Assembly (NCBI RefSeq): GCF_010104355.1
Contig: NZ_CP044972.1
Coordinates: 2,542,001 to 2,606,000 of the forward strand
Direction of reading: 5' to 3'
Length of the DNA stretch: 64,000 nucleotides
From: Hydrogenophaga sp. PBL-H3
GTDB lineage: Bacteria > Pseudomonadota > Gammaproteobacteria > Burkholderiales > Burkholderiaceae_C
This document shows, piece by piece, positions 19,055 through 46,181 of the stretch. Made by a program: the position numbers and the translations under genes. The stretch's first letter is position 1. Each line of letters starts with the position of its first letter. The notes under the pieces are model-generated. The model worked only from the letters and a program-made list of their open reading frames with translations. It did not search any database and was not told the origin of the DNA.

Positions 19055-19082
19055 GGGTTCCTCCAGGAGATGGTTGCGGGTC

Positions 19083-22549: not shown

Positions 22550-22582
22550 GCCGCAGGCCCCGCAAACATGAAACGGGTCGGA

Positions 22583-28881: not shown

Positions 28882-28993
28882 GTTAAGCGATCACCGTCGC
28901 GCGGCCCGCCCCGGTCGCTCGGGCAAGCCCGTTCTCTAGAATCAGACGCGATACTCAAGACTTTTCCCATATCAATCCATCCGCTTCCATTCC

Positions 28994-30123: not shown

Positions 30124-30965
30124 GAGTCCGTGAACAAGCCATCCAGATGATCGGCCCTGAGGCCGACATGCTGGGCATCGTGAGCCTGCCCCCAGAGGAC
30201 GTCGCCGCGAAGCACACGGCGGTCGTCATCGTGGTCGGCGGCGCCCAATACCGGGTGGGCAGCCACAGGCAATTTGTGCAACTGGCGCGCCGCCTGGCCG
30301 CAGAGGGGCACCCGGTACTGCGCTTTGATCTGCCGGGCATGGGTGACAGTCCGGGTATCCTCCTGCCATTTGAAGCCACTTCGGACCCTATCGGACTGGC
30401 CATCGATGCGTTGTACCAGCACTGCCCCGGCGTAGACCAGGTGGTCCTGTGGGGCCTGTGCGATGGAGCATCGGCCAGTGTGCTGTATCTTCGAAACACA
30501 CAAGACCCGCGCGTGGTCGGACTGGCGCTGCTCAATCCGTGGGTACGCTCCGAAGCCAGCCACGCCCGCGTTCGAGTCAAACACTACTACCGCCAAAGGC
30601 TCCTGGACCCATCCTTCTGGCGCAAGTTGCTAGGTGGGCAGGTGGGATGGCAGGCACTTCGAGGTCTGGGTCATAACCTAATCGCCATGCGCCGCCATGA
30701 GCCCACGCCACTCAGCTTTCAAGATGCCATGGCAGAAGCTTGGAAGGCCTTTCCGGGTGCCATCCTGCTGCTGCTCAGCGAACGTGACCTCGTCGCGAAA
30801 GAGTTCCACGAACTGGCTCAAAGCGACGCACGGTGGCTGGGTTCACTTGAGCGGTCACAGCTTTTTCTGCAACACATTCAAGGGGCAGACCACACCTGCT
30901 CCACCACGACCGCCAGTCGCCAAATGGAGTCATTCGTCTTGTCCTGGCTCCGTCAAATAATGTGA
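30120..30965 (+). CDS. Exosortase A system-associated hydrolase 1 (alpha/beta fold)
   Basis: A 281-residue alpha/beta-hydrolase. It starts with VREQAIQM after the ATG and carries VVIVVGGAQYRVGSHRQ (oxyanion region) and FDLPGMGDSPG. The nucleophile elbow is GLCDG, so cysteine replaces serine as the likely nucleophile. The catalytic His is expected in GADHTCSTT near the C-terminus. The ATG overlaps the hydrolase 2 stop by 4 bases. The pair always travels with exosortase A loci; a thioesterase or acyl-transfer role on the carrier protein is a reasonable guess. Confidence 0.9.
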   Translation: MRVREQAIQMIGPEADMLGIVSLPPEDVAAKHTAVVIVVGGAQYRVGSHRQFVQLARRLAAEGHPVLRFDLPGMGDSPGILLPFEATSDPIGLAIDALYQHCPGVDQVVLWGLCDGASASVLYLRNTQDPRVVGLALLNPWVRSEASHARVRVKHYYRQRLLDPSFWRKLLGGQVGWQALRGLGHNLIAMRRHEPTPLSFQDAMAEAWKAFPGAILLLLSERDLVAKEFHELAQSDARWLGSLERSQLFLQHIQGADHTCSTTTASRQMESFVLSWLRQIM

Positions 30966-31033
30966 TCGGGTTACTCTGCGATGGCACGAGGCGCCCGTTG
31001 CCAAATGCACAAGATTCCCAGTCCTGCGACGGC

Positions 31034-31066
31034 TTACATTTCGGCGACTGCATTTACATTTCAGCG
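31034..31066 (+). repeat. Tandem direct repeats upstream of the acyltransferase promoter
   Basis: TTACATTTCGGCG (31034-31046) and TTACATTTCAGCG (31054-31066) differ at one position and are spaced 20 bases start to start, close to two helical turns. They overlap the candidate PrsR box and lie 39-71 bases upstream of the -24 element, the usual place for enhancer-binding activator sites. Confidence 0.6.
31042..31058 (+). promoter_or_regulatory. Candidate PrsR-binding box upstream of the acyltransferase
   Basis: CGGCG-ACTGCA-TTTACA matches the TGTCG-N6-TTTACA pattern of the two other boxes at 9 of 11 fixed positions, in the same orientation and with the same 6-base spacer. It ends 46 bases before the -24 element. 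Confidence 0.5.
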
Positions 31067-31104
31067 CCCGAAAACCAACCATCATCAAGGTATGGTCGCA
31101 AGGT

Positions 31105-31120
31105 TGGGAAAGCGTTTGCA
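31105..31120 (+). promoter_or_regulatory. Sigma-54 promoter of the first FeeM-like acyltransferase
   Basis: TGGGAAAGCGTTTGCA has the invariant GG and GC exactly 10 bases apart and a perfect TTTGCA -12 element. Predicted transcription starts near 31131, giving a 35-base leader to the ATG at 31166. It lies in the 200-base gap after hydrolase 1, so the acyltransferase can be transcribed independently of the hydrolases. Confidence 0.75.
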
Positions 31121-31165
31121 ACCTATATCAAGCGGGTACCTTCAGGTACGCTGTGGAGAACATCG

Positions 31166-31954
31166 ATGCTGGCGCAAAAATACGAGTACTCGGTCGTGAG
31201 CCGGGGGACCCCGGGCTACGAAGACTACTGCTCTCTGCGACACGAGGTGTTTTGCACGGAACTGCAACGAGTTCCCTCATGCGCAGAGGGTTCGGGCAGC
31301 CGCCCCATGGAAACAGATGGTTTTGACGAGCACAGTTTGCATGTCTTGTGCCGATCGGTAGAGACTGGCGAAGCCGTCGGGTGTGCCAGACTCATTCTTC
31401 CCAGCCCCAAGGGGCTCAACGTCCTGTCTCGATACAAACTCCACACCGCCGCCACTTCGGATGCGGAATCGGTGGGAGAAATCGGCAGACTCGCCATTTC
31501 AAGCAAGCTGCGGCGCTACCGTCGCGATACACAACTCGTTGGTCCGGCCCTGCCAGCGATCTGCTCGGAAGAGATCTGCAGGGAAGTCAAGCGCGACGGC
31601 CCGACCGTCGCCTTGGGTCTCTACCGAGAGATATTCCGACTGGCGAGTGAACACGGCATCACCCACTGCTACGCGGCCATGGAGCCTTCGTTGTCACGAA
31701 TGCTCAATCGTCTGGGATTTCCGTTTCAAGAAGCAGGTCCTGTCAACCATGCGGTTCAACCTGCGAGGCAACCCTACCTTATTGGCGCACACGCAATGCG
31801 CTCTGGCTTGGCGGGTCGGAACTCCTGCCTGTATCAGTTCATTTTCGGAACGGATGCACCGATGGTGGAAGCGTTTGGTGAGCCTTCATGGCAAACGCCG
31901 CGCTCGACTTCCTGCCTGTTGCCATTTGGCGCTCGCATACCCTCTTTGGTCTGA
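31166..31954 (+). CDS. PEP-CTERM/exosortase system-associated acyltransferase (FeeM-like) 1
   Basis: A 262-residue protein of the autoinducer-synthase/N-acyl amino acid synthase fold. Visible landmarks are RHEVFCTELQRVP, EIGRLAISSKLRR and the C-terminal ALGLYREIFRLASEHGITHCYAAMEPSLSRML-type region with LGFPFQEAGP. Such enzymes transfer an acyl chain from ACP to an amino group. The start is the ATG at 31166; the open frame upstream contains the promoter and is not protein-like. The gene ends before a strong bidirectional terminator. A paralogue lies at 40838-41572. Confidence 0.88.
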   Translation: MLAQKYEYSVVSRGTPGYEDYCSLRHEVFCTELQRVPSCAEGSGSRPMETDGFDEHSLHVLCRSVETGEAVGCARLILPSPKGLNVLSRYKLHTAATSDAESVGEIGRLAISSKLRRYRRDTQLVGPALPAICSEEICREVKRDGPTVALGLYREIFRLASEHGITHCYAAMEPSLSRMLNRLGFPFQEAGPVNHAVQPARQPYLIGAHAMRSGLAGRNSCLYQFIFGTDAPMVEAFGEPSWQTPRSTSCLLPFGARIPSLV

Positions 31955-32052: not shown

Positions 32053-33135
32053 TCAAACGACCTTCTTCGACCGCCGAACCACACCAAGGCCGGCCAGTGC
32101 CACACCCAACAGAATGAGGATGCCTGGTTCGGGAATGTCGGTGGTGGACACACGCTTGGTCAGATAAATCTCTTCGCTGGCGCCACCATCGGCTGCGATC
32201 TTGAAATTGCCCCAGAACAAGTTGCCGTCTTTCGCATAGGGACTCAAGTCCATGCTGGGAGCGTAAGCAATGAACTCGGGTGATCCACTACCACGGCTGT
32301 TCGTGATGAGACACCAATCCGCGCCAAACGGCGCTGTAGAACAACCCGATCCGGGAATATACACAGGGACGTTTTGTGGAGCCAACACCATGTCTGGATC
32401 CAACGCCAGATCGCCGCTGATCGAGTACTGACCATCAAAAACGTTGTCGAGCGCCCAAACCACGGGATCGCCATTCCCATCTGTCAATGGAACTCCAGAG
32501 CTGTCGGTCAGATAGACCTGACCGCCGAAGTAGAGTTGAGAAACGGCACCTCCTGCTTGCGGATCAGCCAAATCAAAGTAAAAAACCGGGATGAGTTGAG
32601 GCGAAAGCCAATCAACCACCTCTTGAACGGTCAAGACTGGATCATTGGGATCATTGCCTGGATCACTCGTATCAGTCCCAGTGGATCCACCCCAGGTACG
32701 CACATAAATTGGATCGGTTGTATTGGAAGACTGCGCGTCGGGGAACGGATCGGGGTTGTTGAGCACCCCATCTCCGTTTGCCTTGATCAGCACGCCGATG
32801 TCGAGCTGCCCGGAACCCGACACCAGCTTGCTCCAGTCGCCATAAATGGTGGTCGACAGCAGGCTGGGGGCCAATTTTTGAATTGTCTCCAGCGCCTCGA
32901 TCGAGTAAGAGAGAAACTCGTCGTGGTAACTGGCGATGTAAGTGCCGGGGCTGGTCGCCGTGACGGTACCCTTCAAGCACTGCAGGTTGTTGAGACCACC
33001 GCTCAGAGCGGTTTGAATAGCTGCACCGCAGGGTTCCACATCTGGAAGGACCAACTGGGCGTTCGCTCCTCCGGCCAAACAAAGTCCACCGGTCACAACA
33101 GCTGAACGCACGGCGTTCACAATCATGTTTTTCAT
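32053..33135 (-). CDS. PEP-CTERM sorting-domain protein, 360 residues
   Basis: A secreted protein with a signal peptide (AVVTGGLCLAGGANA) and a C-terminal sorting signal: IPEPG motif, hydrophobic helix LILLGVALAGLGVV and basic tail RRSKK. The mature part is acidic, Asp/Gly/Ser/Thr-rich and has no recognised domain; cysteine pairs (EPCGAA/LQCLKG and SGCSTAP/DWCLIT) may form disulfides. PEP-CTERM proteins are cut by exosortase and released into or attached to the extracellular matrix. The gene starts only 16 bases after the T-tract of an intrinsic terminator, so it seems to depend on readthrough from the neighbouring PEP-CTERM gene. Confidence 0.92.
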   Translation of the reverse strand: MKNMIVNAVRSAVVTGGLCLAGGANAQLVLPDVEPCGAAIQTALSGGLNNLQCLKGTVTATSPGTYIASYHDEFLSYSIEALETIQKLAPSLLSTTIYGDWSKLVSGSGQLDIGVLIKANGDGVLNNPDPFPDAQSSNTTDPIYVRTWGGSTGTDTSDPGNDPNDPVLTVQEVVDWLSPQLIPVFYFDLADPQAGGAVSQLYFGGQVYLTDSSGVPLTDGNGDPVVWALDNVFDGQYSISGDLALDPDMVLAPQNVPVYIPGSGCSTAPFGADWCLITNSRGSGSPEFIAYAPSMDLSPYAKDGNLFWGNFKIAADGGASEEIYLTKRVSTTDIPEPGILILLGVALAGLGVVRRSKKVV

Positions 33136-33150
33136 ATCACACCCCGTGTT

Positions 33151-33186
33151 AAAAAAGGCCGCACAACATGCTTGTGCTGTACGGCC
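33151..33186 (-). terminator. Intrinsic terminator between the two PEP-CTERM genes
   Basis: On the minus strand GGCC-GTACA-GCACAA-GCATG-TTGTGC-GGCC-TTTTTT forms a hairpin with one asymmetric bulge followed by six T. It lies 25 bases past the stop of the 248-residue PEP-CTERM gene and immediately before the start of the 360-residue one, leaving no room for a separate promoter. Confidence 0.8.
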
Positions 33187-33210
33187 TGCCTTACATCTAC
33201 TCAATCTCGA

Positions 33211-33957
33211 TCAAGCTGCTTTTTTCATGCGGCGGGAAACACCCAAGCCCGCAAGACCGAGGCCAAGCAAAGCGATCACTCCTGGCTCAGGAACGGGCTG
33301 CGAGTCGCCAGCAATCGTTGCGGTACCCAGGTGGGTTATGCCACCAATCGGTGAGGGAAGTGGCTGAAACTCAGAGGTGTACTTGAAGTCGGCGCCAAAC
33401 TGCGAGTTCGTGTCGAAGTAGGCAGCAGCCAAACCGCCGGCCACGTTCAGAAAACCAGAACCTTCACCGGTCAAAATGGCACCTAGTGAGCTCACACCCG
33501 TCAGCGAACCGGCCAGAGTGGCGCCAGTACCCAACGGGTCAGCACCAACCAGTGTCAGCCAAGGCGTGCCATCGGAAAACGTGGTCACGTCCTGGAAGTT
33601 GGCGTTTGCGCCCGACACGAAAAAGTTCAGCACACCGCCGGTGAACGTGAAACTTTCACCCACAGCAGGCGTCAGGCTGTTCACCAACGTGTAGCCAGTG
33701 AAAGTGTAGGTCAGTTCGCAACCAGAGCAGAAATTGGTCTGCGTATTGATGGTCGTGATAAGACCGTAGCCCGAGATGGTTTGACCAGCAGTGGTTGCCA
33801 CGCTCTCGACCAGCGTGCTGTTCGCCGAGAAATCAAAGAATGAGTCGGTGTCCCACACAACACCACCCACGTTGACCAAGCCAGCGCTGGCGGAACCGGT
33901 AGCCAGCAGCAAAGTAGCGGCGGTCAACGCCGAAGCTGCGATTCTGTTCAATTTCAT
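33211..33957 (-). CDS. PEP-CTERM sorting-domain protein, 248 residues
   Basis: A secreted protein with signal peptide (AASALTAATLLLATGSASA). The Ser/Thr/Gly-rich beta-type body carries one close cysteine pair (NFCSGCEL). The C-terminal sorting signal is VPEPG, hydrophobic IALLGLGLAGLGV and basic RRMKK. The body has no recognised domain; low charge and many Thr/Ser suggest a matrix or adhesin-like structural role. The start is fixed by AAGGAG at 33965-33970, 8 bases before the ATG. A sigma-54 promoter and PrsR-type box lie upstream. Confidence 0.93.
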   Translation of the reverse strand: MKLNRIAASALTAATLLLATGSASAGLVNVGGVVWDTDSFFDFSANSTLVESVATTAGQTISGYGLITTINTQTNFCSGCELTYTFTGYTLVNSLTPAVGESFTFTGGVLNFFVSGANANFQDVTTFSDGTPWLTLVGADPLGTGATLAGSLTGVSSLGAILTGEGSGFLNVAGGLAAAYFDTNSQFGADFKYTSEFQPLPSPIGGITHLGTATIAGDSQPVPEPGVIALLGLGLAGLGVSRRMKKAA

Positions 33958-34009: not shown

Positions 34010-34025
34010 AGCAGTTTGTGTGCCA
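34010..34025 (-). promoter_or_regulatory. Sigma-54 promoter of the PEP-CTERM gene pair
   Basis: Minus strand TGGCACACAAACTGCT matches the -24 element TGGCAC exactly and has GC at the right 10-base spacing. Predicted start is near 34000, giving about a 43-base leader to the ATG at 33957. Confidence 0.8.
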
Positions 34026-34222: not shown

Positions 34223-35095
34223 TTGACCACGTTCAACTACACCGACGCCTTCAGCCGAAACATCGGGGTGGTCAACACCGCCGAGCACGAGCGCCTGAAC
34301 AACTGCACAGTGGCGATTGCAGGCATGGGTGGCGTGGGGGGTGACTACCTCATCAGTCTCGTGCGGGCCGGCGTGGGCGGCTTTCATCTGGCGGAGTTCG
34401 ACGAATTCGAGTTGTTCAACTTCAACCGCCAGTACGGTGCCAACACCCAGACCATCGGCCTGCGCAAGCTCGACGTGATGGTGGACATGGCACTCGCGAT
34501 CAACCCCGATTTGCGCATCACGAAATTCGATGAAGGCATCAACGCGGCCAATATCGACAAGTTCTTGCAAGGTGTGGACCTGGCGGTGGATGCCATTGAC
34601 GCCTTTGCAGTCGACATGCATCCCCTGCTGGTGAACGCAGCCACGGCCCGGGGCCTGGCCACCATTGCTGCTGTGCCCTTGGGTCTGGGTGCGGGCGTGC
34701 TCGCTTTTGGCCCCAAGGGGATGTCGTACTCGGACTACTTCGCCATCAAACCTGAGATGTCGGACGACGAAAAGATCGTGCAGTTCATGCTGGGTTTCGC
34801 GCCCGAACTTCATCACCTCAAATACCTCGATCCCAAGACGATCAACCTGAAAGCCCGCAAAGGTCCCAGTTCGATCGCCGGTTGCAAGCTCTGCACCGGC
34901 TTCATCACCACGCAGGCTCTCATCGCCCTCTTGCATCCCCAAGATCTGGAATGCGTGCCTTGGTACACCTACCTCGATGCGCGGCTGAGCCGGTTTCATC
35001 ACCGACGGTTGTGGATGGGCAACCGCAACCCGATTCAACGGCTCAAGAGCTTCGTGGCGAAAAAACGTCTGGCCAAGATGACGGCTGACTCCTGA
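34223..35095 (+). CDS. ThiF/E1-like adenylyltransferase
   Basis: A 290-residue E1-superfamily protein. The nucleotide loop GMGGVG is at 34-39, followed by the ThiF-type NRQYGANTQTIGLRK (N68-R69-Q70, K82) and the Mg-ligand region VDAIDAF (D123/D126). Only one CxxC pair is visible (C221/C224, GCKLC), whereas many ThiF/MoeB proteins carry two. E1-like enzymes adenylate a carboxyl terminus. No ubiquitin-like or ThiS/MoaD gene is nearby, so the substrate may be an amino acid, a peptide or a lipid acid. The start is a TTG at 34223 preceded by GAGGG. It is the first gene of a six-gene plus-strand unit. Confidence 0.85.
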   Translation: MTTFNYTDAFSRNIGVVNTAEHERLNNCTVAIAGMGGVGGDYLISLVRAGVGGFHLAEFDEFELFNFNRQYGANTQTIGLRKLDVMVDMALAINPDLRITKFDEGINAANIDKFLQGVDLAVDAIDAFAVDMHPLLVNAATARGLATIAAVPLGLGAGVLAFGPKGMSYSDYFAIKPEMSDDEKIVQFMLGFAPELHHLKYLDPKTINLKARKGPSSIAGCKLCTGFITTQALIALLHPQDLECVPWYTYLDARLSRFHHRRLWMGNRNPIQRLKSFVAKKRLAKMTADS

Positions 35096-35190
35096 ACCCA
35101 GACTGGAGGTCTGGGGGCGCTACAGTGCCAGCGCCAGGGCAAATACCCTGCGTTAGACTGACCAGCAAGCAGATTCATGAAGGGGTGAGC

Positions 35191-36042
35191 ATGGCAGGAA
35201 CGGTCTGGAGGACATGGCTCGATTCCACGCGTCTGGCACTGAGTCAACGCATGGCCCGGCGCCTTGTAACCGCCATTCTTTTGACCCCACTGGTTGCCGC
35301 CGCACAGACTGACGAAGGCGCCAAGCTGGCCCAGCGCGTGTACGACCGGCCCGACGGCAAAGACGTCACTTCAGTGGTGACCATGTCGCTCACAGAGGAA
35401 GGCAAGCCGCCCAGGGTTCGCGGCATGCTGCTGTTTCGGGCCAGTGGCAAGGGTGGCGATGTGTCAACCCTTATCCGCTTCACCGATCCGGCAGACATAC
35501 AAGGCACCGGGCTTCTCACGCTCGATGGCGCGGACGGGGCCTCCAACCAGTGGATCTACCTGCCTGCCATGCAGCGTGTGCGTCGAGTCGACTCCAACCG
35601 CAAGGGTGGGCGCTTTGTCAATTCCGACTACTACTTTGAGGATTTGCGTGATCGCAAGCCTTCCATGGACAACCACCGCCTGAAGGCACGCGAGCGGGTG
35701 GGAGACACCGAATGCGAGGTACTGGAGAGTGTCCCGACAGAGGCTGGCAACTCGGTGTACCTGCGCCGACTGAGCTGGATTGACCCCAAGAGTCTGTTGC
35801 CTCTGCGCGTCGACTTCTTTGAACGCAACGCAGACCAGCCGAGCAAGCGACTGCTGGTCACCAAACGCGAGTTGATCCAGGGGCACTGGACCGTCATGGA
35901 CAGCACGCTGAGCGACTTGGGCAGTGGTCACCAAACCCGTCTGACGGTGGGCAAGGTGCTGTACGACCGCAACCTCCCGGAGTCGTTATTCACCTCGCGG
36001 GCCTTGGCCGACGAGCGCGTGGAGCGAGAATTCCTTCCGTGA
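35191..36042 (+). CDS. Outer-membrane lipoprotein-sorting (LolA/LolB-like) protein
   Basis: A 283-residue periplasmic protein of the LolA-like family that accompanies MMPL/RND exporters. The N-terminal hydrophobic segment (VTAILLTPLVAAAQ, cleavage near residue 39) is a signal peptide preceded by a 20-residue extension; ATG at 35251 would give a compact signal but lacks a ribosome-binding site, whereas ATG at 35191 has AGGGG. The body has the typical segments NQWIYLPAMQRVRRV and GRFVNSDYYFEDL. It probably shuttles a lipid or lipoprotein across the periplasm for the neighbouring exporter. Confidence 0.85.
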   Translation: MAGTVWRTWLDSTRLALSQRMARRLVTAILLTPLVAAAQTDEGAKLAQRVYDRPDGKDVTSVVTMSLTEEGKPPRVRGMLLFRASGKGGDVSTLIRFTDPADIQGTGLLTLDGADGASNQWIYLPAMQRVRRVDSNRKGGRFVNSDYYFEDLRDRKPSMDNHRLKARERVGDTECEVLESVPTEAGNSVYLRRLSWIDPKSLLPLRVDFFERNADQPSKRLLVTKRELIQGHWTVMDSTLSDLGSGHQTRLTVGKVLYDRNLPESLFTSRALADERVEREFLP

Positions 36043-36114
36043 CAACCTTGGTCGCAGGGGTGCGCTCGCGACGAAATCGATATGCAATCAACCATCAGAC
36101 GAGGAGCAATGTTC

Positions 36115-37380
36115 ATGCAGGGTCAGCAAATGCGGGGGGCTTGGGTCGGGTCGGGGTTGTTGCTGGCGGCGCTGGGAGGCGTACCGCTGGCCGCAAGTGC
36201 CGAGGGGCTCAAGGTGGACGCGCTGCGTCTGGAGGTGGGGGGCTTTGCCGACGACCCGGGCGCATCCGGCAGTGTCCTGGCGCACGGTGCCGTGAGCCTG
36301 CAAGGCAACAACGGTGACTGGAGCTACGCCCTGGGCGCGAGGTTGGACGCCCACGCGCAATACGGCGATCGCGACTTCGACCGGGTCCGGCTGGACTACA
36401 CCGAGAACTACCTTCGCTGGCAGCAAAAAGACGTCCGGGTGACACTGGGCACCCAAAACGTGTTGTGGGGACGGGTTGACGAGATTTCCCCGACCGATCG
36501 CATGGGCCGGGTGGACTTCTCCCGCGCCGTCCTCGACAAGCTGCCCGATCGCCGGCGCGCAGTCCCCGCGGTGCGCGCGGAGTACTTTGGCGAACGCTTC
36601 AAGCTGGACAGCGTGTGGCTGCCCGTGTTTGACGATGCCGTCATGCCCGACGCCCGCAGTGTCTGGAACCCTGTGGACACCACCAACGGAAGAATCCTGG
36701 GCATCGGCAGCTTGCCCGGCATCGTGGGCGCGCGCGTGGTCAAGGCCGACATCCATGGCTCGGGCGGAGGGGGCGTGCGCCTGACGGCCGAGGGCGAAGG
36801 CTTCGACTACGGATTCAGCTTGCAGCGCATCCGGCAGTCTCAGCCTTACTACAAGGTCGTGCCCGCTGCGCAGGTGGTGCTGCAAGCGGTCCACCCTTTC
36901 AGCACGGTGCTGGGCGTCGAACTGGAAACGGAGCGCCTGGGTGCGACCTGGCGCATGGAAGTTGCCGCGAACAGTGCGGTACCGCTGACCACCCAGAGCT
37001 TCCAGTATCGAACCGAACCTGCACTGGACATCGTGCTCGGTGCGGAATTTTTCCCGGGTGACAGTGAAACACGCGTGACCTTGCAGCTCGCAGGGCACCG
37101 AACTTTCACCAACAAGGCCGTGCTGGACCGGACCCGAATCTACAGCCTGACCGGTGAAATCGAACATCCGTTTGCCAATGGACGCTGGCGCGCCGACCTG
37201 CGCTTCTCGCTGGGGCTCAACGACCGGGACCGTTACTTCAACCCGCGGCTGACTTACACCGGTATCGATCAGCAGGAGATTTACCTCGCGGCACACCTGT
37301 TCAGCGGAGCGAGCAACACCCTGGGGGGCTTCTACCGGCGCAACGACACCCTGGTGATCGGTTGGCAGGGAAAGTTTTGA
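36115..37380 (+). CDS. Outer-membrane beta-barrel protein (DUF1302-like)
   Basis: A 421-residue protein with a signal peptide (GLLLAALGGVPLAASAEG). Alternating amphipathic beta-strands run throughout and it ends in Phe (WQGKF), the hallmark of BAM-assembled outer-membrane barrels. The motif TLGTQNVLWGRVDEISPTDR resembles DUF1302-type porins that travel with RND exporters. GAGGAG at 36101-36106 points to the ATG at 36115; upstream in-frame ATGs at 36082 and 36109 are less well placed. It probably forms the outer-membrane exit or receptor for the lipid handled by the LolA-like and MMPL proteins. Confidence 0.8.
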   Translation: MQGQQMRGAWVGSGLLLAALGGVPLAASAEGLKVDALRLEVGGFADDPGASGSVLAHGAVSLQGNNGDWSYALGARLDAHAQYGDRDFDRVRLDYTENYLRWQQKDVRVTLGTQNVLWGRVDEISPTDRMGRVDFSRAVLDKLPDRRRAVPAVRAEYFGERFKLDSVWLPVFDDAVMPDARSVWNPVDTTNGRILGIGSLPGIVGARVVKADIHGSGGGGVRLTAEGEGFDYGFSLQRIRQSQPYYKVVPAAQVVLQAVHPFSTVLGVELETERLGATWRMEVAANSAVPLTTQSFQYRTEPALDIVLGAEFFPGDSETRVTLQLAGHRTFTNKAVLDRTRIYSLTGEIEHPFANGRWRADLRFSLGLNDRDRYFNPRLTYTGIDQQEIYLAAHLFSGASNTLGGFYRRNDTLVIGWQGKF

Positions 37381-37436
37381 CCATGAACTGCCCGGTTGAA
37401 TTTCAAGCCACGGCGCAGGCACGCTGTGGCTGAGGC

Positions 37437-39773
37437 ATGCACTTGATCGACAGGCTGCGCAACCAGATAGCAAGGGTGACGCAACACGCGCTCTTCCTGC
37501 GCGTGACCCAGCCGGGCATTCTGCGCAGGAAGACAGCGATCACGATCATCGTGCTGATCCACGTGATCGCTGCCGCCCTGTTGCTCAGGCTCAACCTCAA
37601 CAACGCACCCGGCCTGTACTTCCCGCACGACGCTCCCGCCACCGTGCTCGAACGCGAGTTGCGCGCCGAGTTTCCCAGCGACGAGATCCTGATCGGCCTG
37701 TTCCGCGGCGACGACATCTACTCTGCCCCGGTGCTCGGCGCTCTGGACCGCGTCGCGGCAAGCATGGCGAAACACCCCGATGTGGATCGGGTTTTCGCCG
37801 TCACGCGGGTGGACCACATCGCGGGCAGCGCAGACGGCTTCGTGGTCGAACCCCTGATCGATGCAACGCGTCTGGACGCCGAGTCGGCGGAGGTCCGCAA
37901 GGCCCGCGTGCTGGGTGACCGCTTCATGCCGCGCTGGCTTGCCTCAACCGACGGCAAGGCCCTGGCCGTGGTGGTGCGCACCCGCAAGCTCGACGAAAGC
38001 CGTCAGCGACAGTCCATCGAAGACGCGTTCCATGCCGCCGTGCAGGAACAAAAACTGGAGGCCCGCCTGGAGGCGGTGGCGGGAACCGTGGCCCTGGACG
38101 CTGCGGAGATGCGCTCGATGCTGCGCGACACGATCGTGTTCACGCCGTTGGTCATGGGGCTGGGCCTGGCCCTGTTGTACTGGGTGGTTGGACGCGTGAT
38201 TCCGGTGGTCATCGGGGCGGTGGCCATGAGCACTTCGGTGATCGCCTGCGTGGCTCTGATTGCCCTCATCGGTCAGCCGTACACACTGGTCACGGCCATG
38301 GTGCCCACCTTGATCTCGGCCTACACCGCGGCCAACCTGCTGCACTTCTATGCCGCCCTCAAGCGCATGCGGGACGCGGGGTTCCATCGCCCGAAGCGCG
38401 TCATCTTCGCCTTGCAGGAGATCAACACGCCCGCCATGTTCAATGTGTTGACCACGGCAGCCGGCATGATCAGCCTGGTGCTGGTGCCCATCCCTCCGGT
38501 GCAGGTGTTCGGCTTCGTCGGTGCCATCGGCGTGCTCGTGATCTATTTCGTGGTGTTCTATCTGATCCCGCCCTTGCTGGTGAAGTACGACCACGGGCCG
38601 TGGGCCAGCGAAGGTGGCGGCTTCGGATGGACGCGCCGCCTCTCCTTCAGCCTGGCGCGCGTTGGCATCCGGCATGCGGGTTGGGTGGTGGGTGGCCTGG
38701 TGCTCATCTCGGTGGCTGGCACGGCCCTGGTGCTCAGGGTACAGGCCGAGTCGGACCTGCTGAAGTTTTTCAGCGCATCGCATCCTCTGACAACGTCCAC
38801 CACCAAGGTCGAGTCGGCACTGGTCGGAGTGACGGCGCTCGAAATCGTGATCGATGGCCCCGCCCGCGATGCGTTCAAGAACGTCGAACTGCTGCGCAAG
38901 GTGCAGGCGCTGCAGGCGCAGGTGGAGTCCCTGCCCGAGGTGGACCGCACGCTGTCGATGATGGACATCGTCGAAGAGATGAACTGGGCGTTCAACGAGG
39001 AAGACAAGAGCTTTCGCGCACTGCCCACGGACGACCGCATGTTGGCCCAGCTGCTGCTGATCTACGACGGCCGCGATCTGCAGGAACTGGTGAACAACGA
39101 CTACCAGCGCATGCGCATTCTTCTCAACGTCAACGTGCACGGCGCGAACGCCATTCAGGAAGTCATCAACAAAATCGAGGCCATGATCGCCAAGGTCGAT
39201 GCACCTCAACTGAAGTGGCAGATGGCGGGTTACGGACGCCTGTTTGCAGATCAGGAGGACCTCTTGGTCTCTGGCCAGCTGCTCAGCTTTGCCGGTGCCT
39301 TCGGACAGATCTTCCTCATCATGCTGCTGCTGTGGCGAACCGTGCCGGCAGCGGTCATCAGCATGCTGCCCAATCTGGCGCCCTTGTTTTTCGTCTTCAT
39401 GCTCATGGGAGCAACTGGCATCTACCTGGACATGGCGACCGTGCTCATTGCTGGCGTGGTGCTTGGCATCACGGTGGACGACACCATCCACATTTTTTAT
39501 CAGTATCAAAAGCGACGGAGCAACGGTGCGGGCGCGGTGTTTGCCATCGCCAGAAGCATCGAGGCATCGGGCAAGGCCGTGCTTGCCACCTCGGCGCTGC
39601 TGGTCTCGCAGTTCCTGCTGCTCGCCACGTCCAGCTTCGTGCCCACGTCCCGCTTCGGTCTGCTGACCGCCATCGGCCTGATCTCGGGCCAGTTGCTGGA
39701 ACTGCTGCTGCTGCCGGCCCTGGTGGTGCTGTGGAGCCGCATGAATCTGCGGCATCCGCTGCTGAAGTTATAG
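37437..39773 (+). CDS. MMPL/RND-family lipid exporter
   Basis: A 778-residue inner-membrane transporter with two repeats. Each has one helix, a large periplasmic domain and five more helices, about 12 helices in total (first helix TAITIIVLIHVIAAALLLRL; second half begins near residue 410). The signature GVVLGITVDDTIHIFYQY near residue 680 carries the paired aspartates of the proton relay. The family exports lipids, hopanoids or lipoproteins using the proton gradient. It lies 56 bases after the barrel gene in the same unit. Confidence 0.9.
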   Translation: MHLIDRLRNQIARVTQHALFLRVTQPGILRRKTAITIIVLIHVIAAALLLRLNLNNAPGLYFPHDAPATVLERELRAEFPSDEILIGLFRGDDIYSAPVLGALDRVAASMAKHPDVDRVFAVTRVDHIAGSADGFVVEPLIDATRLDAESAEVRKARVLGDRFMPRWLASTDGKALAVVVRTRKLDESRQRQSIEDAFHAAVQEQKLEARLEAVAGTVALDAAEMRSMLRDTIVFTPLVMGLGLALLYWVVGRVIPVVIGAVAMSTSVIACVALIALIGQPYTLVTAMVPTLISAYTAANLLHFYAALKRMRDAGFHRPKRVIFALQEINTPAMFNVLTTAAGMISLVLVPIPPVQVFGFVGAIGVLVIYFVVFYLIPPLLVKYDHGPWASEGGGFGWTRRLSFSLARVGIRHAGWVVGGLVLISVAGTALVLRVQAESDLLKFFSASHPLTTSTTKVESALVGVTALEIVIDGPARDAFKNVELLRKVQALQAQVESLPEVDRTLSMMDIVEEMNWAFNEEDKSFRALPTDDRMLAQLLLIYDGRDLQELVNNDYQRMRILLNVNVHGANAIQEVINKIEAMIAKVDAPQLKWQMAGYGRLFADQEDLLVSGQLLSFAGAFGQIFLIMLLLWRTVPAAVISMLPNLAPLFFVFMLMGATGIYLDMATVLIAGVVLGITVDDTIHIFYQYQKRRSNGAGAVFAIARSIEASGKAVLATSALLVSQFLLLATSSFVPTSRFGLLTAIGLISGQLLELLLLPALVVLWSRMNLRHPLLKL

Positions 39774-39886
39774 CGCACGCACCACAGCGCAAGGCGAATC
39801 CTTGTCTTGTGTCAACTTGCCGGCAAGGGCCGGCGAGCATAATGAAACGAAGCTGAAAAAACGAAGTGATAGGGTTGATCATGGGA

Positions 39887-39915
39887 TTGCATATCGCGGC
39901 CGATCAATACAATAT
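39887..39915 (+). promoter_or_regulatory. Possible sigma-70 promoter before the methyltransferase
   Basis: TTGCAT (39887-39892) and CAATAT (39910-39915) are 17 bases apart in an AT-rich stretch of the 237-base gap between the exporter and the methyltransferase. TTGATC (39875-39880) and GATCAA (39902-39907) form inverted half-sites around it. It would let the methyltransferase and acyltransferase be expressed separately from the exporter genes. Confidence 0.35.
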
Positions 39916-39948
39916 TCGTACAGAAGCAGAATCAAGGAGGGAATGACG

Positions 39949-40014
39949 ATGTGCGCTCACCGTCGCATCCAGGGATGCCGTCCCCCGTTGAACAGCAACG
40001 GTTGCAGAACATGA
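39949..40014 (+). CDS. Possible 21-residue leader peptide overlapping the methyltransferase start
   Basis: A very strong ribosome-binding site AAGGAGG (39934-39940) is followed at ideal spacing by ATG 39949, opening a 21-codon frame (or 23 from ATG 39943). It is rich in Arg, Cys and Asn (MCAHRRIQGCR...), and its TGA overlaps the methyltransferase ATG at 40011 (ATGA). Alternatively the same site serves a GTG at 39951 in the methyltransferase frame, and then no leader exists. Confidence 0.35.
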   Translation: MCAHRRIQGCRPPLNSNGCRT

Positions 40015-40814
40015 CCAACACGAACACGGGCTCATACCAGTTCGAAGCGCTCAACGACGCGCAGTTTCAAACACAGCGCCTGCAGCAGCAGGCCCAGGCT
40101 GTGCGCAGCCTGGAAACCTCGATTCTGCGGGGCGCAGGCATCCAGCCCACGCACGACGTGCTCGAGATTGGCAGCGGCCCGGGCTTCGTGTCCGACCTGC
40201 TGGCCGAGCTGGCTCCCCAGGGCAGTCTGCACGCCGTGGAGCCCAGTCCCACCCTGATTGCCCAGCTGGAAGGCAATGTGCGGCAAAAGCCCGCACGCGG
40301 GTTGTTCAGCCATCAGGCTTATGGCGACGCCCTGCCCCTCGCGGACCAGAGCATTGATTTCTCATACACGCGCTTCGTGCTACAGCACGTTCCCAAGCCG
40401 CAGGCAGTGGTGCAAGAGGTGTTCAGGGTGACGCGGCCCGGTGGCCGTTTTTGCGCTGTCGACTCCGATGACGGGCTCGTTCTGTTCCACCCCGGAGAAC
40501 CGCGTGTGGACCATGTGCTGCACAGCGCGCAAAGCATTCAGGCCAGCCAGGGCGGTGACCGGTTCATCGGTCGCAAGATGCAGGAGATGATGCTTCAGGC
40601 CGGGTTCACCAAGGTCAAGACGCGGGTCATGATGCTCACCAGCAGCGAACTGCCGTTCCCCGTGTTGTTCAACATCCTGCTCGGCTACAAGGCCTCGCTG
40701 CTCGGCGACGCCGTGGACCTCGCCAAGCTGTTCGAAGACTTGTCGGCCGACGTGGCGGCCGGCAGGCGCCTGGTCGCGGCCGGCGTGTTCATCGTGTCGG
40801 GCGAGCGCGCATAA
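40011..40814 (+). CDS. SAM-dependent class I methyltransferase
   Basis: A 267-residue protein (287 if a GTG at 39951 is used; see the leader entry). Motif I is LEIGSGPGFVSDLL (51-64), the acidic ribose ligand is in LHAVEPS, and motif VRVTRPGGRF is the usual post-III segment. It belongs to the ubiE/Methyltransf_11 type acting on small molecules. It lies 23 bases before the second FeeM-like acyltransferase, which suggests that it methylates the acylated product or its head group. Confidence 0.85.
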   Translation: MTNTNTGSYQFEALNDAQFQTQRLQQQAQAVRSLETSILRGAGIQPTHDVLEIGSGPGFVSDLLAELAPQGSLHAVEPSPTLIAQLEGNVRQKPARGLFSHQAYGDALPLADQSIDFSYTRFVLQHVPKPQAVVQEVFRVTRPGGRFCAVDSDDGLVLFHPGEPRVDHVLHSAQSIQASQGGDRFIGRKMQEMMLQAGFTKVKTRVMMLTSSELPFPVLFNILLGYKASLLGDAVDLAKLFEDLSADVAAGRRLVAAGVFIVSGERA

Positions 40815-40837
40815 GGTCGACGGCACCAGGGCCTGCG

Positions 40838-41572
40838 ATGGAAACTGTGTACTTCACCTTCTACGAAGTGATCCCGGGCAGCTCCGATTTCGAGGACTAC
40901 CTCGAGGCGCGGTACCTCGTGTTCTGCGAAGAGCTGGGCCGGGTCGATGCACCGGGCATGTTTTCCAGCCGCGGGCATCCCATTGAAACCGATCAGTACG
41001 ACGCCAACAGCCGCCATTTCATCGCCCGCCACAAAGCCAGTGGCGTGGTGGCGGGTTTCATGCGGATCATCATGCCCAACGAATATGGGCTCAATGTGGC
41101 GCAGCGCTACGTGATCGAGCGGCCCCTGCCCTACTCCAGCGCCACCGAGGACAAGATCGGGGAAATTTCCCGGCTGGCCGTGACGCCGCATTTTCGCCGC
41201 CGTCATTCTGACGAGGGCAAGCCGATTCAGGGTGACCCCGAAAGTGAGATGACCCTCAAGACCGATGGTGTGCGGCATCACCAACCCGAGCTGGTGCTGG
41301 GCATGTACCGCGAGGTGTACCAGCTGTGCCGCCAGACCGGCCTGGATTACTGCATGGCCGCGATGGACAACCTGTTCAGCCGGCTGTTGACCCGACTGGG
41401 ATTTCCTTTCGTGGCGGTGGGCCCTCTGAACCCCAACGTCACGCCGGCGCGCAGGGTCTACATCATCAGCGCCACCGAAATGGAACGCATGCTCGGGGCT
41501 CGTGAAGCCACCATCCTGCAGTTCATGCAGACGCAACTCAACACGAACGCGGAATCCGCTCCTCTGGCCTGA
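40838..41572 (+). CDS. PEP-CTERM/exosortase system-associated acyltransferase (FeeM-like) 2
   Basis: A 244-residue paralogue of the protein at 31166-31954. The shared landmarks are ARYLVFCEELGRVD, the EISRLAVTPHFRRR segment, LVLGMYREVYQLC and RLLTRLGFPFVAVGPLN. The fold is that of N-acyl amino acid/autoinducer synthases that take acyl chains from ACP. Here it is the last gene of the ThiF-LolA-barrel-MMPL-methyltransferase unit, so its product is probably the lipid those genes modify and export. Its stop TGA is immediately followed by the convergent TCA of the next gene (TGATCA). Confidence 0.88.
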   Translation: METVYFTFYEVIPGSSDFEDYLEARYLVFCEELGRVDAPGMFSSRGHPIETDQYDANSRHFIARHKASGVVAGFMRIIMPNEYGLNVAQRYVIERPLPYSSATEDKIGEISRLAVTPHFRRRHSDEGKPIQGDPESEMTLKTDGVRHHQPELVLGMYREVYQLCRQTGLDYCMAAMDNLFSRLLTRLGFPFVAVGPLNPNVTPARRVYIISATEMERMLGAREATILQFMQTQLNTNAESAPLA

Positions 41573-42598
41573 TCAGCCCGTCAGCGCGGCCCGCGTTCGC
41601 CGGGCCCAGCGCCCCAGCACATGGCGCCCAGCCGCCAGCCAACCTTGCCAGTGGAGCAGGTCGCAGGCCAGCAGGCCCACCCGCTCCCGCCTCATCGCCA
41701 TCCAGTCGGCCTTGTAAGCATCGTCGCCGCTGAGGTAGTCCACTTCCACCACACGATCCACGTCAATGACATGCTGCATCAAGGCGGCGGTCAGCACCGA
41801 TCCCGCGGAGAGTTTCTGGAAACCCTCGACATACGCCAGCTTGTAGATATTGGCCTTGCCGCCGTGCACCAGCCACACCTGAGCCGCCAGCGGCCTGCCG
41901 TCCAGCCACAACACGCCCAGGCGCAACCAGCCTTCTCGAGCCGCGGTACGGATCAGGCCTGGCATGAAGGCAGGGCAAGGCTCAGGCTGTTTCCAGCTCT
42001 GGCCATAGACCGACGCATAGGCTGCGACGGCAGCTTCCAGCTCGTCAGACTCGCTGGTGACGATGTCGATGCGCCAAGGACCCGCTTTCTCCAAACGGCG
42101 ACGCCCTCGCTCCACGCTGTGCCGCAGCGCTGAAGGCCGCTCAGACCAATAGGCGGCGAATCCGCCCGAGGCCACGGGCTGGTACCAGTTGCCGAAGCAG
42201 AAGAAACGATCGGTCCAGTAGCGCTTCGTGTGCAAGGCCTTCTCGAACGCGGCCAGCCATTCACTGGATGCATCCAGCGGTTGCAATTGAACGACGGCAC
42301 TGCCGGGGAGTTCGCGCATCCTCGTCACCAGAGCACGCCAGTCGGATGCGCTCATCGATTCAACATCACCCTGTGGTCCAAACAGACAGGTATAGAAGTT
42401 TGAAAGCGCCTGCAAGCCCCCCCCCGCCTGCGGCCGCATGAGCTCAAAGCTCAAACCGCCTGCGCTTGATGAGGACTCCAGCGGCAGGGAAATGGGCTGA
42501 TCGACAAAGCCGTGCTCGCGAAGGTTGTCGAACCATGCCTTCGTCTGGAACAGCTCCGTATCTGGCGGCCTGTGGGCCCGGTCGGCTGGCCCGCTCAC
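41573..42598 (-). CDS. FemAB-like/BioF2-type GNAT protein of the polysaccharide region
   Basis: A 341-residue protein with a GNAT-like C-terminal half. The segments LRHSVERGRRRLEKAGPWRIDIVTS and LGVLWLDGRPLAAQVWLVHGGKANIYKLAYVEGF resemble Acetyltransf_6/FemAB-type proteins often found in exosortase-linked polysaccharide loci. They may transfer an aminoacyl or acyl group to a sugar amine. The GTG at 42598 overlaps the stop of the VanZ-polymerase fusion (GTGA), so the two are coupled. There are no membrane segments. Confidence 0.75.
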   Translation of the reverse strand: MSGPADRAHRPPDTELFQTKAWFDNLREHGFVDQPISLPLESSSSAGGLSFELMRPQAGGGLQALSNFYTCLFGPQGDVESMSASDWRALVTRMRELPGSAVVQLQPLDASSEWLAAFEKALHTKRYWTDRFFCFGNWYQPVASGGFAAYWSERPSALRHSVERGRRRLEKAGPWRIDIVTSESDELEAAVAAYASVYGQSWKQPEPCPAFMPGLIRTAAREGWLRLGVLWLDGRPLAAQVWLVHGGKANIYKLAYVEGFQKLSAGSVLTAALMQHVIDVDRVVEVDYLSGDDAYKADWMAMRRERVGLLACDLLHWQGWLAAGRHVLGRWARRTRAALTG

Positions 42599-45500
42599 AC
42601 CCGCAAGCCTCGGGAAGCCTTGCCAGGCATCGAAGGCGCCGGAACAACAGGACCAGCAACGCGATGGGACGACCTCATTGACGCCATCCACGTCAGGCAC
42701 ACCAGGAGCAGCACATAGCGCGGCTCGCCGGTGAACGAGTCGAACAAGGACACGACGACCAGACCCACCAACGCGGCGGTCAAGGCGAGCGAGGACTGGT
42801 CACCCGACGATGCAGCGCTGAACCCACGCACGAGTCCCGTGCCCACCAACAGCACGAAGGCCACCAGACCGAACACCCCCTGGTCAAACCAGACCGCCAG
42901 AAAGATGTTGAGCACCCGCCACGAGCGATGGTCGTCCGAGGTGTAGCTCCAATGGTCCCCCGCAGAGGCAAAGTTGCCGTTTTGCAGCAACTCGTTTCCC
43001 TGCGCGGTGCGCAGCGAAATCTGGCGGATATCGACACGCGCGGCACCGGAGTTTTGAATCGCCAGCCGCACCGGTCGACCCAACCAACCGTCGGATCGAC
43101 GCAATGCCTCCGTCTCAATGGAAGCGGAAAAAGACTGCCAGCCCGGCTCGCCTGCTTTCAGATCAAAACCGCGCACGACACAGTTCTCTGAGGAAAGAAG
43201 CCATTTCTGGCACAGATAAACAGCCATTGAACCGCTGCCCCCGATGGACCGGGCTTCCAACGCCAATTCAACAGGGCCTGCACCATGAAGTTCAACGAAC
43301 TGATCCAGGTACAGATCAGGGCCCGGGCCCAACTGCAATTGGCTCACACCCTCCTGTCGCAGGAAACGGTGCATGGCCTTGTGGGTGCCATCTTGTGCTT
43401 GCGACACGGCATCCCAGTAGGTTCGGGAAGGGTATTGCCCCAGACCGTTTCCGAAGATCCAGGCCGAGGCACTCTGACCACCGATGCGCACCACGTTCCT
43501 GAAGTGATCGATCCGTATTTGAAAGTCTTGCCCCACGATCGCCAGCCGCGAACTGGCGAATGGGCTGATGGCCAGGGGATAGGCCATCGCGACCAGCACG
43601 ACCAACAGGGCCGCTGAGGTCAGGGCACCCAGGCGCCTCGTCAGAAAAGCCCGGTGACCGGCAATGGCAACGAATGCACAAACCACCACCGCGGCCAGAT
43701 GCGTCGTTCGCGTGAACGTCACGACAACTGCATAGGCCGCCGCCAGCGCGACCAAACTGCAAAACACCCGCCAGACTGCTGATTTGCCAAACAGCGCGCC
43801 CAACAGGGCAAAAGGCAGCGCCGAGACCAAAAATGCATCGAGATACACCCCGCCGAGTCGCATGGCCATCACAGGACCGGCCGCGCGATAAGGCGTCGAG
43901 AAATCCCACAAACCGGCAAAAGCGGCACGCTCCCAGAAAACGAAACACGAGACATAGGCCAGACCCACCACCAGGCCCACGCCAAACGAGCGCACCACAG
44001 GCAGTTGGTTGGCATGTTGCCGCCGCGCCAGAACGAACAAGCACAAGGCCCACAACAACCCCTTCAAGGGACGCACCGCTTGCCAGGGACTCAGGGGTGT
44101 ATCCGGGTTCTGCAATGCAGCCAGCTCCCAGGGACGCAAGGCCACCACCACCGCCACAACAGCGCTCATGACAAACACGCCCAGGACTGCACCCAACCAG
44201 CGGTCTTGTGCGGGGGTCGCGCCGCCCAGTGGCTGGCGCACCCATGCGATGACCACCACGATCAACAGAAGCACGTCAAATTCATCCACATACTCCCTGC
44301 CGCTCAGGGCAGAGAGGTCAAACGAGGGCAAGGCCGCTGCAACCACGCCAAACAACCACACCGGGCGCCACCAGACGAGCGAGGCACCCACCATCAGCGC
44401 GAGTCCGACCGGCCACTGCAACACCGGGAAATGGAACAACCAGGCAGCAGCGCCAACGAACACCGGAAGGATCAACCAGACCGAGGCGCGTGTCGCAACG
44501 GTTCCCGCGGAGCCCGTGCGCGCCGGGCTCACTGCGGGCAATGCTTGTACGGGCTCAACCTCCCTCCCCGGCTCAAAAAACCGATGCAACAACTGCACGC
44601 ACAAAGCCGCTGCCGTCGCAGCGATCAAGACGTTGGTCGGGTCGGGCCGGCTCTCAAGCGGAAACAGTTTCCCGAACTCCACCACGAGGGCCACGCCAGC
44701 GGCGATCCAGGCCGCATGGCGCACCGACAAAGACGACACCCAGCACCACAGCCCCACTGGCGCATAGAGAAAGGCGATGGTGAGAAGGCTCTGCAGAGCG
44801 ACCGCCTCGCTGGTGTAGTAGTGGTAATAAAACGGCACGAAACGAAGCTCGCCGCTGGACAAGCGCGCCACCGCATCTTCGACACTGCGCCAGGCGCCAC
44901 CGCCCAAGCCACTCAACACCACGACCGCCCACAGGTGGAGCGCTGCCAGGGGCCACACCCACCGGCTCAAGGTTTTGCGCCACTGATCGATGCTCCAGAC
45001 GAGCCTGCGATTCCACAGCCAGGCACCCAACAACCAGCCTGTGCCCCGCGTCAGTACCGACAGCCCCTGGCTCACACCCGACGCCATGAACCATTGCCCG
45101 ACCTCGATGATCACGCCGAAACCGGCACCCAACCACCATGCCGCCAGCAACGAAGCCTGCGCGGTCGCCGACCGCTGGCCGACGAGGACGGAGCGCGCCC
45201 ACAACGCGCCCAGCGGCACCAGCACCGCAGTCTCGGCAACCAGCCGGGCCAGCTGACGTATCAAGGACTCCTGCGCAAACTCGGGGGCCATCCACCAACC
45301 CCAGAACGAGCCACTCGCCTTGTCCGACAGTTCGGCAGACGACACCAGAACGTCGAACGGAAACAGGGACACGAGCAGCACCACCAGCGCCCCCGCGGGC
45401 ACCAGGACAGCGGCCACCTCGCGCCAGTGACCGCGCAAAACCGTCTGCAAGCCAGCCAGCCACGCCGTGCCACGCCAGGCCAGCAAAGCGCCCACGGCCG

Positions 45501-45918
45501 TACCCAGTCCCTCTGCCACCAGGTCGTTGATGGAGACCGTGCGCGGAGGAAAGTACAACTGCGAAAACTCAACCGCCACCGCGAGGGCCAGGCCGAACCC
45601 GATGGCCAGCACGCTGTTCAACAGCCGCCGGCCAATGCCCTGCCCCGCCAACGATGCGGCGGTCAAAAAGCCCACGGGCACGTACAGCACGCCATTGGCG
45701 ATCCAGTCGGCGCGCCCCTCCAGGCCAATGTCGAGCATGGGGATGCTCGCGAAACTCGCCAGGGCTTGTTCCAGGGTGATGGCCTGAAACTCCAGAGGAA
45801 CAAGGCTGCCATAGACGACAAACAAGACCCAAGCCCACCAGAGCGCTCGGACAAAACGGGCTGGCAAACCCGCGGCCTGGTCCACCCGCAAAGAAGGAGG
45901 TGCTGGCACCAATGACAT
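42595..45918 (-). CDS. VanZ-VanZ-Wzy-like fusion membrane protein with periplasmic insert
   Basis: A 1107-residue polytopic protein. The N-terminal 150 residues form a VanZ-like domain (SLVPLEFQ..., ANGVLYVPVGFL, AVEFSQLYFPPRTVSINDLVAEGLGT-type block). A second VanZ-like region lies around 340-460 (SLVPLEF-type opening lost; VNFGKLF-like VVEFGKLFPLESRPDPT present). Residues 500-1107 resemble an O-antigen ligase/polymerase: FTRTTHLAAV, GNGLGQYPSRTYWD and a final helix pair after RVLNIFLAVWFDQGVFGL. Between these lies a periplasmic insert (about 835-995) with LCQKWLLSSENC and LLQNGNFASAGDHW, matching the insert in the polymerase at 24061-26046. It is likely a glycan polymerase or ligase. ATG at 45918. 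Confidence 0.75.
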   Translation of the reverse strand: MSLVPAPPSLRVDQAAGLPARFVRALWWAWVLFVVYGSLVPLEFQAITLEQALASFASIPMLDIGLEGRADWIANGVLYVPVGFLTAASLAGQGIGRRLLNSVLAIGFGLALAVAVEFSQLYFPPRTVSINDLVAEGLGTAVGALLAWRGTAWLAGLQTVLRGHWREVAAVLVPAGALVVLLVSLFPFDVLVSSAELSDKASGSFWGWWMAPEFAQESLIRQLARLVAETAVLVPLGALWARSVLVGQRSATAQASLLAAWWLGAGFGVIIEVGQWFMASGVSQGLSVLTRGTGWLLGAWLWNRRLVWSIDQWRKTLSRWVWPLAALHLWAVVVLSGLGGGAWRSVEDAVARLSSGELRFVPFYYHYYTSEAVALQSLLTIAFLYAPVGLWCWVSSLSVRHAAWIAAGVALVVEFGKLFPLESRPDPTNVLIAATAAALCVQLLHRFFEPGREVEPVQALPAVSPARTGSAGTVATRASVWLILPVFVGAAAWLFHFPVLQWPVGLALMVGASLVWWRPVWLFGVVAAALPSFDLSALSGREYVDEFDVLLLIVVVIAWVRQPLGGATPAQDRWLGAVLGVFVMSAVVAVVVALRPWELAALQNPDTPLSPWQAVRPLKGLLWALCLFVLARRQHANQLPVVRSFGVGLVVGLAYVSCFVFWERAAFAGLWDFSTPYRAAGPVMAMRLGGVYLDAFLVSALPFALLGALFGKSAVWRVFCSLVALAAAYAVVVTFTRTTHLAAVVVCAFVAIAGHRAFLTRRLGALTSAALLVVLVAMAYPLAISPFASSRLAIVGQDFQIRIDHFRNVVRIGGQSASAWIFGNGLGQYPSRTYWDAVSQAQDGTHKAMHRFLRQEGVSQLQLGPGPDLYLDQFVELHGAGPVELALEARSIGGSGSMAVYLCQKWLLSSENCVVRGFDLKAGEPGWQSFSASIETEALRRSDGWLGRPVRLAIQNSGAARVDIRQISLRTAQGNELLQNGNFASAGDHWSYTSDDHRSWRVLNIFLAVWFDQGVFGLVAFVLLVGTGLVRGFSAASSGDQSSLALTAALVGLVVVSLFDSFTGEPRYVLLLVCLTWMASMRSSHRVAGPVVPAPSMPGKASRGLRV

Positions 45919-46181
45919 CCGTTCAGGTCCCGTCACCAGGCGATGCGCTGCAAGGCCACGACCACCCATGCTGTGCTGGATCGACGCGCCGATCGGCACC
46001 TGCCGCGAAGGTCGTCAAGTGGGATGCCTGCGGTTGGGATCATTCAAAGATGATAGTCGTTGGACCGCACGCAAAGACCCATGCCGGACTCGCCGCCGCG
46101 ATACGTGACAATCGCCCCGGGACCGGCGTCTCTTCGCGAGCCCGACTCCACCAACACCCCGGGAACTGCCCGCTCCACGTG

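Follow-up and report, generated by a model that had tools for sequence, protein, structure and literature searches.

What do six co-directional genes of Hydrogenophaga sp. PBL-H3, in which a ThiF-like adenylyltransferase and an N-acyl amino acid synthase flank a chain of envelope proteins and a methyltransferase, make, and where does the product go? The genes lie in a window of 64,000 nucleotides (NZ_CP044972.1, positions 2,542,001 to 2,606,000), the whole stretch of DNA analysed here. An earlier note, made from the letters of this window, had read them as one unit that makes an acylated molecule, methylates it, and exports it through the outer membrane. All six open reading frames were found where the note had placed them, on the plus strand. 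We consider it probable that the locus encodes a biosynthesis and export module for a lipid derived from an N-acyl amino acid in bacteria with an XrtA/PEP-CTERM system. This reading builds on what we observed of gene content, family membership, catalytic residues, linkage, the absence of an oxidase, and a promoter sequence. Beyond the six genes, the analysis added a second synthase (AT1), a divergent PEP-CTERM gene (PEP1), and upstream exosortase-A ligase, acyl carrier protein (ACP), and hydrolase genes.

Conservation and arrangement of the genes

Three ThiF sequences, used to scan genome contigs, retrieved 31 loci, in which the presence or absence of genes was decided by six-frame hidden Markov model searches. 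Loci whose ThiF reaches at least 75% identity occur in Hydrogenophaga, Thauera, Rugosibacter, Nitrotoga, Sulfuricella, Sulfurimicrobium, an unclassified betaproteobacterium, and metagenome-assembled genomes of Acidovorax and Methylophilaceae. Those with at least 5 kb of upstream sequence all carry the methyltransferase (MT), at least one synthase, and a PEP-CTERM gene; where enough downstream contig exists, the barrel is found in all, and the LolA-like and MMPL genes in nearly all. The ThiF clade of the window comprises 18 loci from at least eight betaproteobacterial genera, which contain ThiF, MT, usually two synthases, and the LolA-like, barrel, and MMPL genes where contigs reach, with one partial exception, and no flavin oxidase. 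The Methylophilaceae locus (L124) has no LolA-like match, and its MMPL and barrel genes are rearranged further off. In Sulfuricella, which has no MMPL gene, an ABC/FtsX transporter stands in its place; the other gaps are contig ends. The grouping is not a matter of chance, and the neighbourhood on which the earlier note had staked its proposal is kept well beyond close relatives, with small variations. The whole six-gene unit gave no match in the plasmid collection.

In the commonest order among relatives, MT-AT2-AT1 is followed by the divergent PEP-CTERM gene and then by ThiF-LolA-barrel-MMPL, whereas in the window and in another Hydrogenophaga locus (L113) MT-AT2 lies downstream of MMPL instead. 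MT always adjoins AT2, and AT1 orthologues adjoin ThiF in most relatives. Because MT-AT2-AT1 lies across the divergent PEP-CTERM gene in most relatives, a single transcript is not required, and separate transcripts, which the note had named as telling against its proposal, are probable, yet the genes stay linked. What survives of the proposed route is its company: synthase, MT, exporter, carrier, and barrel travel with ThiF across families, and in Nitrotoga MMPL and LolA are fused in one gene of 1061 residues.

One could go further and suppose that MT-AT and ThiF-export are blocks that do not serve the same lipid. The separation of the two in most relatives would agree with this, as would the gap of 177 bp between MMPL and MT (the other gaps from ThiF through AT2 are 29, 39, 56, and 23 bp) and the lack of a sigma-54 promoter facing ThiF. 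However, despite rearrangement the distance between the blocks is no more than a few kb in nearly all long-enough loci, LolA_like genes lie near ThiF in 28 of 51 cases, and elsewhere in the Burkholderiales, as well as in a contig from the Desulfovibrionales (L133), the same combination recurs together with a flavin-dependent oxidase (FDO), so that we regard functionally unrelated blocks as unlikely. In many other Burkholderiales loci (for example L097, L101, L103, and L105), a FeeM-type synthase, ThiF, and a nitroreductase adjoin or are fused, and in L096, L098, L102, L107, and L110, as in L133, they are joined by LolA and barrel genes and by MMPL or ABC/FtsX genes. The neighbours or fusions in L097, L101, and L103–L106 are candidate acyl-oxazolone clusters in their own right.

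The ThiF group and the absent oxidase

The window ThiF is placed by profile matches (PF00899, 108.8 bits; NF006077, 335.7 bits, cut-off 266; PRK14851, 295.5 bits), tree, and catalytic residues among the small-molecule ThiF proteins that belong to acyl-oxazolone pathways. These pathways, OxzAB (Pseudoalteromonas rubra) as well as TyzACB and TrzAS (Mycobacterium tuberculosis), combine a FeeM/LuxI-type synthase with a ThiF cyclase, as does the window. An N-acyl amino acid synthase and ThiF, with or without an oxidase, yield acyl-oxazolones, and for TyzB and TrzS the ATP-using cyclisation of N-acyl amino acids has been demonstrated, after which a flavin oxidase desaturates the product (PMC10404671, PMC12856293). 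The adenylation residues R12, GxGGxG, D60, R69, K82, and D123 are all common to the window ThiF and its FDO-linked relatives, and activation of the carboxyl group of an N-acyl amino acid, as the earlier note had suggested for this protein, would have its precedent in the TyzB/TrzS/OxzB group.

The known systems resemble the locus in part. The tyz cluster adjoins an MMPL gene, as the ThiF unit of the window does (PMC10404671). Unlike Oxz, Tyz, and Trz, the window has no FDO and adds MT, usually a second synthase in its clade, the LolA-barrel-MMPL chain, and the PEP-CTERM context. A combination of synthase, methyltransferase, ThiF, and nitroreductase has been proposed for stieleriacines; in the clusters for stieleriacine, kyonggic acid, and thalassotalic acid, the synthase, ThiF, and, in Stieleria, the methyltransferase lie close together as in the window, but with a nitroreductase, and the passages cited describe neither an export chain nor a PEP-CTERM partner (PMC12479983). 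Our literature search for an exporter combined with acyl-oxazolone-type genes gave nothing relevant beyond the Tyz paper. The earlier note's remark that it knew of no described pathway of this composition holds only in part, the locus being an oxidase-free, exporting form of the acyl-oxazolone route.

A profile built from ten FDO proteins, which found both positive controls (G302 and G564), detected no TyzC/OxzB-type FDO (nitroreductase superfamily, FDO-A) in the whole genome of strain PBL-H3 or in two relatives (G503 and G495); two of nine further window-type genomes gave weak partial matches only. No other conserved oxidase was found in its place across the loci. In the ThiF tree, from which OxzB and TyzB themselves were absent, the window clade of 18 sequences (support 100/99) has no member with a nearby nitroreductase, whereas its sister group (Sedimenticola, Methylomonas) has one in some members and the surrounding sequences are mostly FDO-linked. 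Resolution is poor in the deep branches, and a limited search distance accounts for some labels of absence outside the window clade; oxidase loss would be the simplest reading of this tree. Because no FDO was found, the product must differ from the known dehydro-oxazolones, barring an unrelated oxidase, and, as it lacks this one defining feature, the module is not counted as a member of the oxazolone pathway. The outcomes that remain for the ThiF step may be a saturated oxazolone or an activated carboxyl captured by a nucleophile, with no preference between them.

A complete acyl-oxazolone pathway like OxzAB or TyzACB, in which an oxidase that is unlinked or unrelated performs the desaturation, would fit the presence of synthase and ThiF, the catalytic residues shared with FDO-linked relatives, and the other nitroreductase-superfamily genes of this genome; set against the FDO searches and the lack of any other oxidase conserved across the loci, it appears rather improbable. 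That ThiF is a classical E1 activating a ubiquitin-like or sulfur-carrier protein is scarcely credible despite its E1 fold and Asp/Arg/Lys adenylation residues, since no ubiquitin-like partner was found nearby, just as the earlier note had stated, no small open reading frame is conserved in the loci, the ThiS/MoaD genes of the genome are more than 430 kb away, and the ThiF proteins most closely related to it show linkage to N-acyl amino acid synthases. A further member of the ThiF family (62 bits) is encoded at 18948-19376 of the second, 320-kb contig (C2; L004).

Synthases, export chain, and the PEP-CTERM neighbour

Both synthases exceed the TIGR03694 cut-off of 111.95 bits, AT2 just above it with 117.8 bits (Table 1). 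Residues R25, E50, D52, D55, R76, E109, and R112, the LuxI/FeeM core including the catalytic Glu, are invariant in an alignment of 28 synthase sequences. The AT2 structure model (predicted local distance difference test score, pLDDT, 82.9) matches the folds of TofI, LasI, BjaI, and FeeM. AT1 and AT2 probably form N-acyl amino acids, and the catalytic Glu of such synthases is essential, as established by mutation (PMC4897644). The upstream ACP and ligase would be plausible sources of the acyl donor. The reason for this is that FeeM is ACP-dependent. Craig, Cherry, and Brady, as cited in PMC4897644, reportedly described PEP-CTERM-linked N-acyl amino acid synthases of TIGR03694 in 2011, and the synthase genes of the window belong to the same family and lie beside PEP-CTERM genes; that description is not known to have included a ThiF, MT, or exporter.

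The LolA-like protein passes the PF17131 gathering cut-off (169.7 against 30 bits) and has the PDB relatives 9tp6, 3bk5, and 4z48; its true start may lie downstream of the annotated GTG codon. The barrel protein itself has no Pfam match, whereas its relatives match DUF1302, and its AlphaFold2 model (mean pLDDT 88.7) is an outer-membrane-type beta-barrel with Foldseek likeness to porins and AlgE. The 64 ThiF-bearing genomes of the order Burkholderiales contain 51 LolA_like genes, of which 28 are no more than 15 kb from ThiF, where chance would give about 0.4. This is an approximately 70-fold enrichment, but its P value should not be read at face value, since the comparison ignores shared ancestry. 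The result suggests that such ThiF clusters are generally accompanied by a Lol-like carrier. In four genomes (G216, G317, G355, and G534), LolA_like domains remote from ThiF sit in open frames of 1069–1200 residues, which are probably additional MMPL-LolA fusions.

PEP1 orthologues occur in every locus with sufficient upstream contig, and in 14 loci the gene faces away from ThiF with a sigma-54-type promoter. As judged from sequence, a full-score site lies about 95–127 bp before each recognised PEP1 gene (14 of 14 scored loci), against a background in which 77 of 1340 windows scored at least 20 of 21. The site in the window holds TGGCAC and CTGCTT, the hexamers of the mapped sigma-54 promoter of pepA in Aquincola (PMC9850573). 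The floc-associated PepA model (NF033554) was matched along its length by all ten PEP-CTERM relatives scanned, with 213 bits in Sedimenticola (L127). The PepA/RpoN system of Aquincola, whose PepA is needed for flocs to form, likewise combines such a PEP-CTERM gene with PrsK, PrsR, PrsT, and EpsB2; it differs in that PEP1 does not reach the PepA cut-off and that a lipid module was not described there (PMC9850573). All four proteins of the PrsT/PrsR/PrsK/EpsB2 block exceeded their cut-offs (TIGR02917, TIGR02915, TIGR02916, and TIGR03013). AT1 has a full-score sigma-54 site in six loci (Nitrotoga, the unclassified betaproteobacterium, and Methylophilaceae). XrtA lies about 7 kb past the end of the window and was found in all 11 genomes checked, although this exosortase is common among these bacteria. 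The module is tied by its position to the exosortase/PEP-CTERM programme, and a regulatory tie is probable. No sigma-70 promoters were found, and terminator-like sites were not above chance.

Table 1. Features of the window (positions within the 64,000 nucleotides)
Feature	Position	Strand	Evidence
ThiF-like adenylyltransferase/cyclase, oxazolone-pathway group; single domain, no nitroreductase	34223-35095	+	NF006077, PRK14851, tree, catalytic residues
LolA-like periplasmic lipid carrier (PF17131)	35125-36042	+	profile match, PDB relatives
Outer-membrane beta-barrel, DUF1302-related	36082-37380	+	structure model, Foldseek, DUF1302 matches of relatives
MMPL/RND inner-membrane lipid exporter	37437-39773	+	PF03176 104.6 bits, TIGR00921 140.3 bits
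MT, class I S-adenosylmethionine methyltransferase (Methyltransf_11)	39951-40814	+	PF08241 64.7 bits; 14 orthologues
AT2, PEP-CTERM-associated N-acyl amino acid synthase (TIGR03694)	40838-41572	+	profile score, LuxI/FeeM residues, fold
AT1, second TIGR03694 synthase	30962-31954	+	conserved start 31166; downstream of ACP/hydrolase genes; 126.3 bits
PEP1, PepA-like PEP-CTERM protein, divergent from ThiF	33211-33957	-	start taken at 33957; NF033554 55 bits
Sigma-54 -24/-12 promoter-like site TGGCACACAAACTGCT for PEP1	34010-34025	-	promoter scoring
PEP2, second PEP-CTERM protein	32053-33204	-	PF07589
Exosortase-A acyl-CoA ligase (-), ACP (+), hydrolase 2 (+), hydrolase 1 (+)	27235-30965		TIGR03098 712.7 bits, TIGR03101 274.3 bits
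PrsT, PrsR (sigma-54 activator), PrsK, EpsB2: XrtA-system regulators and glycosyltransferase	16277-23977	-	profile matches
FemAB-like GNAT gene	41573-42700	-	PF13480
Giant membrane protein	42595-45999	-	
HprK-related kinase A	14222-15142	-	TIGR04352 391.9 bits

Among the neighbouring genes, the FemAB-like GNAT gene stands directly behind AT2, and Hydrogenophaga L113 has a 72% identical copy behind its own AT2. A protein similar in size to the giant membrane protein is encoded near the ThiF of L093 (629-3940), with two VanZ matches and one O-antigen ligase (Wzy_C) match. The HprK-related kinase gene lies near that of PrsT.

Proposed function and its meaning

From the evidence above, we infer substrates, a product, a direction of transport, and a role in flocs or the extracellular matrix as follows. 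AT1 and AT2 would acylate an amino acid with a fatty acyl group that the upstream ACP and ligase probably provide, and MT would modify the N-acyl amino acid or its precursor. ThiF would adenylate the carboxyl group of the product and most likely either close an oxazolone ring or pass the activated acyl to a nucleophile, and no flavin desaturase step would follow; by analogy, the module probably works like an oxazolone pathway up to the ThiF step. MMPL would lift the lipid out of the inner membrane; its passage across the periplasm would fall to the LolA-like protein, and its reception in the outer membrane to the barrel. At the cell surface, the lipid would then act with the PepA-like PEP-CTERM protein under sigma-54 control.

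Several points weigh against this proposal. The six genes probably form two modules, MT-AT and ThiF-export, rather than one transcript, and no sigma-54 site at threshold faces ThiF. By the known route, formation of the known oxazolone product requires an FDO, which makes the ThiF step uncertain. PEP1 does not reach the NF033554 cut-off of 80 bits, and its window-type orthologues score 48–76 bits. Nor is the carrier family confined to this lipid, given that 23 of the 51 LolA_like genes lie away from ThiF, and the direction of transport is presumed to be outward.

A more specific version of the proposal is highly doubtful, namely that an activated N-acyl aminoacyl lipid, either a saturated oxazolone or a carboxyl conjugate, is exported to the outer membrane as a lipid partner or anchor of PEP-CTERM proteins, the PepA-like neighbour among them, once XrtA has processed them. 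If true, the missing acceptor in the exosortase reaction would thereby be identified.

It has been recognised since 2011 that N-acyl amino acid synthases go together with exosortase and PEP-CTERM systems, to our knowledge with no purpose established for them. New here are the oxidase-free, exporting ThiF clade, the Lol-like carrier as a general partner, and the divergent PepA-like gene with its sigma-54-type promoter. The findings suggest that Gram-negative acyl-oxazolone-type clusters often own a Lol-like exporter, of which we found no description in the literature searched. With its chain across the envelope and its PepA-related neighbour, the conserved ThiF clade without an oxidase offers a testable route to the identity of the lipid, to its export, and to a role in flocs or matrix or in anchoring.

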